Source: an uncultured Methanobrevibacter sp. (lineage in GTDB: Archaea > Methanobacteriota > Methanobacteria > Methanobacteriales > Methanobacteriaceae). From it: a stretch of DNA of 64,000 nt. The first letter of the stretch is position 1. Each line of letters starts with the position of its first letter. The translations under genes and the position numbers were made by a program. Under the pieces are notes generated by a model. The model ran no database searches. It had not been told where the DNA came from and saw nothing but the letters and a program-made list of their open reading frames with translations. Of the stretch, positions 17,567 to 53,950 are shown piece by piece. Where the stretch lies: the NCBI GenBank assembly GCA_900314635.1, contig OMVY01000004.1:66878-130877 (forward strand), in the 5' to 3' direction.

Positions 17567-18589
17567 ATGACTTGTAGTATATTAGTTGGCGGAGCCTGGG
17601 GAGATGAAGGAAAAGGTAAATGCATTACCTATCTCTGTGATAATGACAAGCCGGATATTATTGCTCGTGGCGGAGTAGGTCCTAACGCAGGACATTCAGT
17701 TGAATTCAATGGAGAAAAATACGGTTTGAGACTTGTTCCGTCAGGTTTTGTGCAGACTGAAGCTAAACTGATGATTGGTGCCGGAGTACTGGTTGATCCT
17801 GAAGTGTTTTATCATGAATTGGAATACTTGAGCAAATACAAGGTTGCAGAACGTGTTTCCATTGACCCTCGCTGTTCCATTATTACTCCTGAGCATAAGG
17901 AGCGCGATGTAAAATCAGAATATCTTGCGAAAAAAATCGGAAGCACAGGATCTGGCTGCGGACCTGCAAATTCTGACAGGGTATTGAGAGTGGCTAAATA
18001 CGCAAAGGATGTTCCTGAACTCGAAGACTACCTGCTTGATGTTTCCTTAGCTACCAATGAGGCATTGGACAATGGTGAGGATGTATTCATTGAAGGTTCC
18101 CAGGGTTTTGCATTATCACTCTATTATGGTACTTATCCATTTGTAACCAGCAAGGATACAACTGCAAGCAGTTTTGCTGCTGATGTAGGTATTGGTCCGA
18201 CCAGAATCGACGAGGTAATTAATGTATTTAAATCATATATTACCCGTGTTGGAGAAGGTCCTTTCCCTACCGAGATTTCCCAGGAGGAAGCTGAAGCCAA
18301 GGGAATTGAAGAATATGGTGTAGTAACCGGCAGAAGACGAAGAGTAGGTTCTTTTGACTTTGATCTTGCCAAGGAATCCTGCAGAATCAATGGTGCTACT
18401 CAAATAGCTTTAACCTGTGTTGACAGATTATATCCTGACTGTGCTAGAACCCAGGACATTCAAGATCTTTCTGCTGATACAAGGGAGTTCATTTCTCAAG
18501 TGGAACAGGAAACAGGAGTGCCTGTAACAATCATATCCACTGGTCCTGATTTAAAAGACACAATCGACTTAAGAGATGAGTTATTATAA
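17567..18589 (+). CDS. purA: Adenylosuccinate synthetase
   Basis: 340 residues, the short archaeal form (bacterial enzymes are ~430). Makes adenylosuccinate from IMP, aspartate and GTP on the way to [15 protein letters not shown] at 7-18 is the GTP-binding loop with the catalytic Asp; [13 protein letters not shown] holds the catalytic His (GHS). [14 protein letters not shown] and the C-terminal [12 protein letters not shown] are IMP-binding regions. Start ATG with AGGAGAT at good spacing. Single gene with its own leader. Confidence 0.95.
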
Positions 18590-52537: not shown

Positions 52538-52663
52538 TTATATTCTATCTCTGCTAATTCTAAAAATGGAATTAAATGCTTTTTTAATAGGGTTTTTCTT
52601 GGCTTCTTCTTTTTTTCTTTCCCTTTCCAGGAATTCTTTTCTTCGTTGTGCTTCATTCGCCAT
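52538..52663 (-). CDS. 41-residue Lys/Arg/Glu-rich peptide (small ORF A)
   Basis: ATG 52663 with GGTGAT three bases upstream; stop TAA at 52538. Sequence begins MANEAQRRKEFLERERKKEE and continues AKKNPIKKAFNSIFRISRDRI. The first 25 residues should form a highly charged helix; the last 15 are basic and amphipathic. The AKK-x-P-x-K...F region matches ORF B, so they look like paralogues. It follows ORF B by 22 bp, under promoter P2. No known family. Confidence 0.6.
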   Translation of the reverse strand: MANEAQRRKEFLERERKKEEAKKNPIKKAFNSIFRISRDRI

Positions 52664-52685
52664 TTAATCACCAAATTAATATTGA

Positions 52686-52823
52686 TTAATCATTGTTGGT
52701 TTTCTTATTACAGCATCCAAAGAAATAATTTCTAACCTTGTGCACTGGTTTTTTAGCATCTTCAGCATTTTTTGCTTCTCTGGCTTTTAATTTCTTTCTC
52801 TCTTCTGCTATATTGCTTGTCAT
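52686..52823 (-). CDS. 45-residue basic peptide with a CC motif (small ORF B)
   Basis: ATG 52823 with AAAGGAGG seven bases upstream, an excellent signal. Begins MTSNIAEERKKLKAREAKNA, then EDAKKPVHKVRNYFFGCCNK and a short KTNND end. The helix-forming charged N-terminus and the AKKPxxKxxxxYF region are shared with ORF A; the adjacent cysteines FGCC are unique. Metal binding by CC plus His is possible. First gene after promoter P2, whose start site overlaps a DtxR-like palindrome. Confidence 0.65.
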   Translation of the reverse strand: MTSNIAEERKKLKAREAKNAEDAKKPVHKVRNYFFGCCNKKTNND

Positions 52824-52860: not shown

Positions 52861-52876
52861 TTTAGGTTTTCCTAAA
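52861..52876 (-). promoter_or_regulatory. DtxR/IdeR-like operator at promoter P2
   Basis: TTTAGGTTTTCCTAAA: arms TTTAGG/CCTAAA are perfect around a 4-base centre. On the minus strand a TATA box (AGTTATATAAT, about 52899-52909) lies about 28 bp upstream, placing the palindrome over the transcription start of small ORF B, where a bound repressor would block initiation. Confidence 0.65.
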
Positions 52877-52909
52877 TATATTAATATATGGTCTTGTTAT
52901 TATATAACT

Positions 52910-53259: not shown

Positions 53260-53352
53260 TTATCGTCTAAAAGATACTACTTTGGGATCACGTTTTCTTT
53301 TAGCTTTTGATTTTTTTTGTTTCTTGCCGGAAATTCCACTGCGACTTACCAG
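53260..53352 (-). CDS. 30-residue Lys/Arg-rich peptide, possible CTG start (small ORF C)
   Basis: GGAGGTG (minus strand, 53358-53364) is followed at five bases by CTG 53352, which opens SRSGISGKKQKKSKAKRKRD then PKVVSFRR and TAA at 53260. About 40 percent Lys/Arg; probably binds nucleic acid or an acidic partner. There is no in-frame ATG, GTG or TTG, so CTG initiation is the only reading that uses the strong ribosome site; the ATG just before it gives only MEV. An antisense 54-codon frame (53210-53374, plus) overlaps it but has no ribosome site. Confidence 0.4.
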   Translation of the reverse strand: MVSRSGISGKKQKKSKAKRKRDPKVVSFRR

Positions 53353-53467: not shown

Positions 53468-53483
53468 TTTAGGCACGCCTAAA
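53468..53483 (-). promoter_or_regulatory. DtxR/IdeR-like operator at promoter P3, start-site box
   Basis: TTTAGGCACGCCTAAA: seven-base arms TTTAGGC/GCCTAAA, the best match of the set. It lies about 28 bp downstream (minus strand) of the TATA box at 53511-53520. Confidence 0.7.
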
Positions 53484-53510: not shown

Positions 53511-53520
53511 GTATATAAAT
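53511..53520 (-). promoter_or_regulatory. TATA box of promoter P3
   Basis: ATTTATATAC on the minus strand, between the two DtxR-like palindromes. The 33-bp spacing to the CCTAAA arm is the same as in P1. Confidence 0.6.
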
Positions 53521-53521
53521 A

Positions 53522-53537
53522 TTTAGGTTTGCCTAAA
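53522..53537 (-). promoter_or_regulatory. DtxR/IdeR-like operator at promoter P3, upstream box
   Basis: TTTAGGTTTGCCTAAA: perfect six-base arms around TTTG. It lies just upstream of the TATA box (minus strand), over the position of the TFB recognition element, so P3 has operators on both sides of TATA. Confidence 0.7.
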
Positions 53538-53776: not shown

Positions 53777-53941
53777 TTAAAGGTTGGTTGCTATGAATCC
53801 GATAATCAAAATAATAAATATCAGATAGTATAGAGCAATTCTTGTAAATTTATTTGTTTTAACCTCATCGATAAGCAGAATCAAAAGAACAATCAACAGA
53901 ATTATCTCTATAATACTCATTATCAGCAATAGAATATTCAT
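53777..53941 (-). CDS. 54-residue two-helix membrane protein
   Basis: ATG 53941 with AGTGATGAC upstream, starting 9 bases after the end of the PHP gene (TAA/TAG at 53951). Two hydrophobic helices (about 2-24 and 36-52) joined by DEVKTNKFTR. Position and frame integrity suggest cotranscription with the PHP gene. The DNA coding for the C-terminus (GGTTGCTATGAATCC on the plus strand) is duplicated right after the stop. Confidence 0.6.
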   Translation of the reverse strand: MNILLLIMSIIEIILLIVLLILLIDEVKTNKFTRIALYYLIFIILIIGFIATNL

Positions 53942-53950
53942 TGTCATCAC

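Follow-up and report, generated by a model that had tools for sequence, protein, structure and literature searches.

The window analysed here, a 64,000-nucleotide stretch of DNA from an uncultured Methanobrevibacter sp., a gut methanogen, carries two short open reading frames, ORF A and ORF B, on its minus strand. The best explanation for ORF B, to which we give about an even chance, is that it is a translated and selected microprotein of a DtxR/IdeR-type iron regulon of Methanobrevibacter. We consider it very likely that there is a conserved family of iron-regulon microproteins of this kind, and the family sequences are under strong purifying selection. Our best reading is that the family would act as an iron-limitation-induced accessory of ferrous-iron uptake or of iron sparing. 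Both frames lie where an earlier note on this DNA, which gave no strand, had placed them, and their sequences agree with its description apart from one detail: the motif read there as AKK-x-P-x-K is indeed common to both, in the form AKK(N)P[IV].K (AKKPVHK in ORF B, AKKNPIK in ORF A). The operators, the link to feoB and a third microprotein gene, ORF C, go beyond that note. The features of the locus are as follows.

52538 to 52663, minus strand: ORF A, 41 residues (MANEAQRRKEFLERERKKEEAKKNPIKKAFNSIFRISRDRI), ATG start, the paralog without the GCC core
52667 to 52672, minus strand: Shine-Dalgarno site of ORF A, GGTGAT, read directly
52686 to 52823, minus strand: ORF B, 45 residues (MTSNIAEERKKLKAREAKNAEDAKKPVHKVRNYFFGCCNKKTNND), ATG start, a type I FFFGCC microprotein; the end includes the stop codon
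52830 to 52837, minus strand: Shine-Dalgarno site of ORF B, AAAGGAGG, read directly
52861 to 52876, no strand assigned: operator TTTAGG-TTTT-CCTAAA 5' of ORF B, an exact match that overlaps the expected transcription start
52899 to 52908, minus strand: TATA-box-like element gTTATATAAT of the B-A transcript, read directly, its position inferred
53260 to 53352, minus strand: ORF C, 30 residues, (M)VSRSGISGKKQKKSKAKRKRDPKVVSFRR, very basic; CTG start here, mostly TTG in relatives
53468 to 53483, no strand assigned: operator between the TATA box and ORF C, an exact match
53512 to 53519, minus strand: TATA-box-like element TTTATATA for ORF C, read directly, between two operators and aligned in relatives
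53522 to 53537, no strand assigned: operator just upstream of the ORF C TATA box, an exact match

Orthologs of ORF B, each preceded by a Shine-Dalgarno-like site and sharing the consensus MGNMAEARRKMHERDERVKKENKSEVKKIRNFFFGCCNDKESKKVKEH, are intact in 13 of the 19 genomes of the genus, its own included (12 others). The frameshifts or stops in relatives that the earlier note had named as grounds for refutation were thus not what we found for ORF B, for which dN/dS is 0.04-0.11. Pairwise values were 0.040 among genus relatives, 0.071 with the window sequence and 0.109 in genus g9; these are means over related sequences and are approximate, since dS is near or above 1. Third codon positions vary about 2 to 9 times as often as first and second positions, and the tail R-N-x-F-F-G-C-C is invariant across the genus alignment. 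The synteny around ORF B varies while the protein is kept; in the window the segment carrying ORFs C and B is inverted relative to the flanking RibD-type and PHP-type genes of relatives. It could be argued that ORF B is a leader peptide or a spurious frame, with the RNA or the operator as the selected feature, and its small size and the conserved structured leaders upstream of sister types would fit this explanation. The dominance of third-position changes, a dN/dS of 0.04-0.15 across the microprotein family as a whole and the retention of the protein through changes in synteny all argue against it, and we regard it as already disfavoured and very improbable. The proposal of the earlier note that both frames are genuine small genes therefore holds for ORF B through its dN/dS and orthologs, and for ORF A solely through homology and its Shine-Dalgarno site.

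The ORF B protein consists of a basic, charged N-terminal helix followed by a short cationic-aromatic tail, KK-x-x-N-FFF-G-CC. Its AlphaFold model places a helix at residues 5-24 only, the remainder being of low confidence (pTM 0.29), and such a predicted model leaves the choice of mechanism undecided.

The C-terminal signature of the family is KK-[IV]-x-N-FFFGCC, and searching with this tail identified two further types in addition to that of ORF B (type I): type II, with the pattern [SP]CC...KK[VI][FK]NFFFGCCK, and type III, with KCC...KK[IL]W[TC]FFFGCNCH. The conserved cysteines are thus CC in type I, CC...CC in type II and CC...CxCH in type III. Of the 152 genomes in the phylum set, 77 carry one or other of the three types; they all belong to four genera (g1, g3, g6 and g9) of one family, and 59 of them are g9 genomes. 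A profile search of the 139 genomes of that family recovered type I in 20 g9 genomes and 2 g6 genomes as well. Almost every genome with the family has a single copy; the exceptions are the genome of the window, with ORFs A and B, and G025, in which two type I genes (L111 and L114) lie on different contigs. Furthermore, type I and type II/III never co-occur within a g9 genome (20 versus 23 verified), an exclusion with a chance of 3e-5 if the types were independent and phylogeny is ignored. This exclusion and the near-universal single copy are as expected of one function.

The family, of about 40 residues, is apparently uncatalogued. Pfam gave no match at E <= 1 for types I-III and none for ORFs A, B and C, NCBIfam gave none for types I and II, and in the PDB neither the type I profile nor the single type III protein searched had a sequence match. 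PADLOC gave no defence match, and Rfam detected no RNA family besides tRNAs in nine related loci. Some candidate members were rejected: a Clostridia locus (L062) was an out-of-frame chance match, and the two matches in G006 and G008 (E about 0.02) contain internal stops and sit at the end of a glutamate dehydrogenase gene.

The suggestion of the earlier note that the two frames arose by duplication is borne out, ORF A being statistically supported as a paralog of ORF B by sequence comparison. A profile of 35 type I sequences, with B among them and A excluded, was compared with the 1733 stop-to-stop frames of the window and returned ORF B at E 5.6e-20, ORF A at E 3e-5 and the next-best frame at E 1.8. 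None of 20,000 shuffles of ORF A reached its profile score. The family-wide alignment, by comparison, includes ORF A, so its own score there holds by construction. Against a small local database, its nearest full-length relative was a type I protein from g6, with 51% identity across 35 residues. FGCC had been taken for an addition in ORF B; it is instead the conserved core of the whole family, which ORF A has lost, with RIS in place of the GCC of ORF B. Since ORF B lies upstream of ORF A, with 22 bp between them, ORF A would come second in a joint B-A transcript, from which it is probably made.

In our reading, ORF A is a paralog without the cysteines, of recent origin or degenerate, which may be either a working partner of ORF B or a decaying copy. 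That it is specifically a decaying pseudogene has, in our estimate, slightly less than an even chance: the cysteine core is gone and no ortholog was found in any other genome searched, whereas the frame and start are intact, the Shine-Dalgarno site is perfect and KK-x-x-N-x-x-F is retained.

The window contains three exact copies of TTTAGG-N4-CCTAAA, all near ORFs A, B and C, and we take this operator to be the first 14 positions of the DtxR/IdeR consensus plus one base on each side. The copy at ORF B precedes the ATG by 38 bp, and the TATA-like element is located about 25-35 bp further upstream. Exact operators number 18 in the genome of the window versus 1 for the reversed control, and they outnumber it in 17 of the 19 genomes of the genus. 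If one mismatch is allowed, the whole-genome count is barely higher than the control (38 versus 33), and genome-wide weight is therefore given to exact sites alone; with up to two mismatches allowed, the total for the window does not rise above chance. Operator neighbours include feoA, feoB, a P-type ATPase and an HTH/4Fe-4S protein, and one-mismatch sites adjoin genes for ferredoxin, flavodoxin and MvhD. TTAGG-N4-CCTAA is therefore found at the promoter, is common to iron genes and is enriched, as a DtxR/IdeR-type regulon demands. The genome has one strong, and only one clear, DtxR-family gene (L198:1195-1905, minus strand), and a one-mismatch operator about 125 bp before its start (L198:2029-2044) suggests autoregulation. 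A further one-mismatch site (L092:1957-1972) was seen between genes identified by eye as apparent mcrA and mtrE.

The operator also accompanies the family beyond the genus. Most g9 type I genes carry TTTAGGTATaACTAAA 31-43 bp before the start, and an operator with at most one mismatch lies within 450 bp 5' of most g9 type I and most type II/III members, a match that shuffled upstream sequences almost never equal. In six of the seven full-length genus relatives examined, ORF B is without a good operator of its own; in these the operators are at ORF C, 260-480 bp upstream of B, with hairpin-like sequence between. DtxR would be expected to repress ORFs B and A, with induction at low iron, although the repressor may sense a metal other than iron and the regulation may be MntR-like.

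ORF C lies upstream of ORF B, under two operators that flank a TATA box and are at the same place in all aligned genus relatives; the one at 53468 to 53483 is exact in nearly all of them. The frame is kept in 14 of 19 genus genomes at 65-79% identity, with a dN/dS of 0.073 and a GGAGGTG site 7-8 nt upstream. ORFs A, B and C have net charges of +6 to +12 and pI values of 9.7-12.0. A 57-residue hydrophobic frame at 53777 to 53950 on the minus strand had no convincing homolog among the loci fetched.

A second line of evidence comes from the sister types. feoB lies within 1.5 kb of 15 of the 26 type II/III loci, mostly with feoAB divergent from the family gene; in g6 the family gene is downstream of feoA-feoB on the same strand, and in G064 it is directly upstream of feoB. 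About half of the type III genes are also not near feoB. Another recurrent neighbour is a gene for a DUF4012 protein. In 17 of the 26 type II/III loci it comes no more than 230 bp after the family gene; it lies 2.8-4.9 kb from ORF B in six of seven genus relatives and is present elsewhere in the genome of the window. A family that sits behind an iron-type operator, with many relatives' copies beside the ferrous-iron importer, probably aids in coping with iron shortage. The FeoB link of the sister types, the operator, the cysteine pairs and the aromatic-cationic tail together favour an iron-shortage accessory of ferrous-iron uptake. When Fe(II) is plentiful, the repressor would sit on TTTAGG-N4-CCTAAA across the start site and ORFs B and A would be off; under iron shortage, B and A would be made along with FeoAB and ORF C. 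The tail of ORF B would then most likely dock on the membrane or on FeoB, and its paired cysteines might bind or sense Fe(II) or a cluster, thereby tuning ferrous-iron uptake. We propose this Feo-accessory mechanism tentatively, at somewhat under an even chance; on this view ORF B may bind metal and act on FeoB. The absence of a good operator at B in six of seven relatives, the position of type I genes (near feoB in none of 30 loci) and of about half of the type III genes, the presence of only two cysteines in type I and the largely low-confidence AlphaFold model count against it. The earlier note listed metal binding, membrane and RNA association as possible roles, and of these a metal-linked role is now likely.

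FeoC and Cys-rich FeoB-associated peptides are thought to tune ferrous-iron uptake in bacteria, and by analogy we favour a family that would work like one of these while being a member of neither. Like FeoC, a small [4Fe-4S] or Cys regulator of FeoB in Gammaproteobacteria, the family is small and feo-linked, and types II/III have four cysteines; unlike FeoC, it is about half the length and has two cysteines in type I. FeoC is recognised by a winged-helix domain with a Cys cluster and a profile match, whereas our family has no Pfam match, and the model of ORF B shows one helix, with low confidence elsewhere, and predicts no winged-helix fold. The Cys-rich FeoB-associated peptides, as defined in PMC8749426, are likewise tiny and cysteine-containing, types II/III adjoin feoB in several branches, and in both cases the function is unproven. 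In contrast to them, the family is archaeal and without a Pfam match, its type I genes are not beside feoB, and ORF B has one CC pair only, with neither a transmembrane segment nor the Cx3-5Cx2-3Cx6-8C motif.

The cysteines could also point to a cytosolic buffer, chaperone or scavenger of Fe(II) or another thiophilic metal, acting without a dedicated partner. The conservation of CC, CC...CC and CC...CxCH in types I, II and III and the P-type metal ATPase in the regulon are consistent with such a role. A buffer would be expected to be induced by metal excess, not controlled by a DtxR-type repressor; type I has two cysteines only, and the conservation of FFF and KK would go unexplained. We therefore consider this explanation quite improbable.

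The main rival to a Feo accessory is an iron-sparing helper like FbpA, FbpB and FbpC of Bacillus subtilis, in which ORFs A, B and C, together with iron-regulated small RNAs, would block translation of iron-rich enzymes and not act on FeoB. Pfam holds models for FbpA and FbpB, and the lack of a match of ORFs A, B and C to any Pfam family weighs against this rival. In Bacillus, the small basic proteins FbpA/B/C are under Fur control and work alongside the sRNA FsrA (PMC7430163). They are 29-59 residues long, and ORFs A, B and C resemble them in size and charge and share one kind of operator among themselves, so that control by an iron repressor would be a further parallel. The genome of the window also has at least two candidate RNAs in tandem, with the same promoter layout as ORF C and an unpaired CUCC stretch. 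Unlike the Fbp proteins, the family has a DtxR-type operator, not a Fur box, and an invariant FFFGCC core that is not what an RNA chaperone needs, and the feoB linkage of 15 of 26 type II/III loci also argues against this explanation. On this evidence we judge an Fbp-like role unlikely. A complete Methanobrevibacter iron-sparing system, with a DtxR-type repressor, tandem small RNAs bearing anti-Shine-Dalgarno loops and the 30-45 residue microproteins A, B and C as an independent archaeal counterpart of Bacillus FsrA-Fbp, seems slightly less likely again.

Overlooked stand-alone small proteins are not unique to this genus among methanogens, as illustrated by MtrI and MtrR of Methanosarcina mazei, which regulate a membrane complex; the contacts of MtrI involve Cys and aromatic residues (PMC12774963). 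Compared by description with our family, MtrI is larger (C-terminal residue Glu67), contains a zinc ribbon and has Mtr as its binding partner.

Methanogenesis depends on iron-rich enzymes, hydrogenases among them, that are limited by iron. To our knowledge, little is known of post-transcriptional iron control in archaea, and our literature search found no paper on it for Methanobrevibacter. A one-per-genome microprotein family with an iron-type operator and a FeoAB link gives genetic studies a specific target in those rumen and gut methanogens that can be cultured. The results also illustrate how comparative genomics can connect a peptide pair that resembles noise in a single genome with a pathway.

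The candidate RNAs lie on contig C19 of the same genome, at L078:17605-17930 (plus strand), 18027-18410 (plus strand) and about 2071-1650 (minus strand), and have relatives in L191-L197. Each has an operator-TATA-operator promoter, a conserved ACATCATTTTCTTCTGC and a T-rich end, with an unpaired CAA[CT]CTCCAAA, containing the CUCC stretch, between two hairpins. They contain no convincing open reading frame, have no Rfam match and resemble the iron-responsive sRNAs FsrA, IsrR and PrrF.

Additionally, a conserved leader of 150-250 nt separates the operator from the frame in most type III genes (L171-L173, L175, L177-L187, L189 and L190) and in the type II loci L124 and L126. This leader could be a structured leader or a dual-function RNA; it contains the hairpin GAAATTAAATATG...CATATTTAATTTC and the single-stranded segments ACTACACTCC and ACTACTCTCA.
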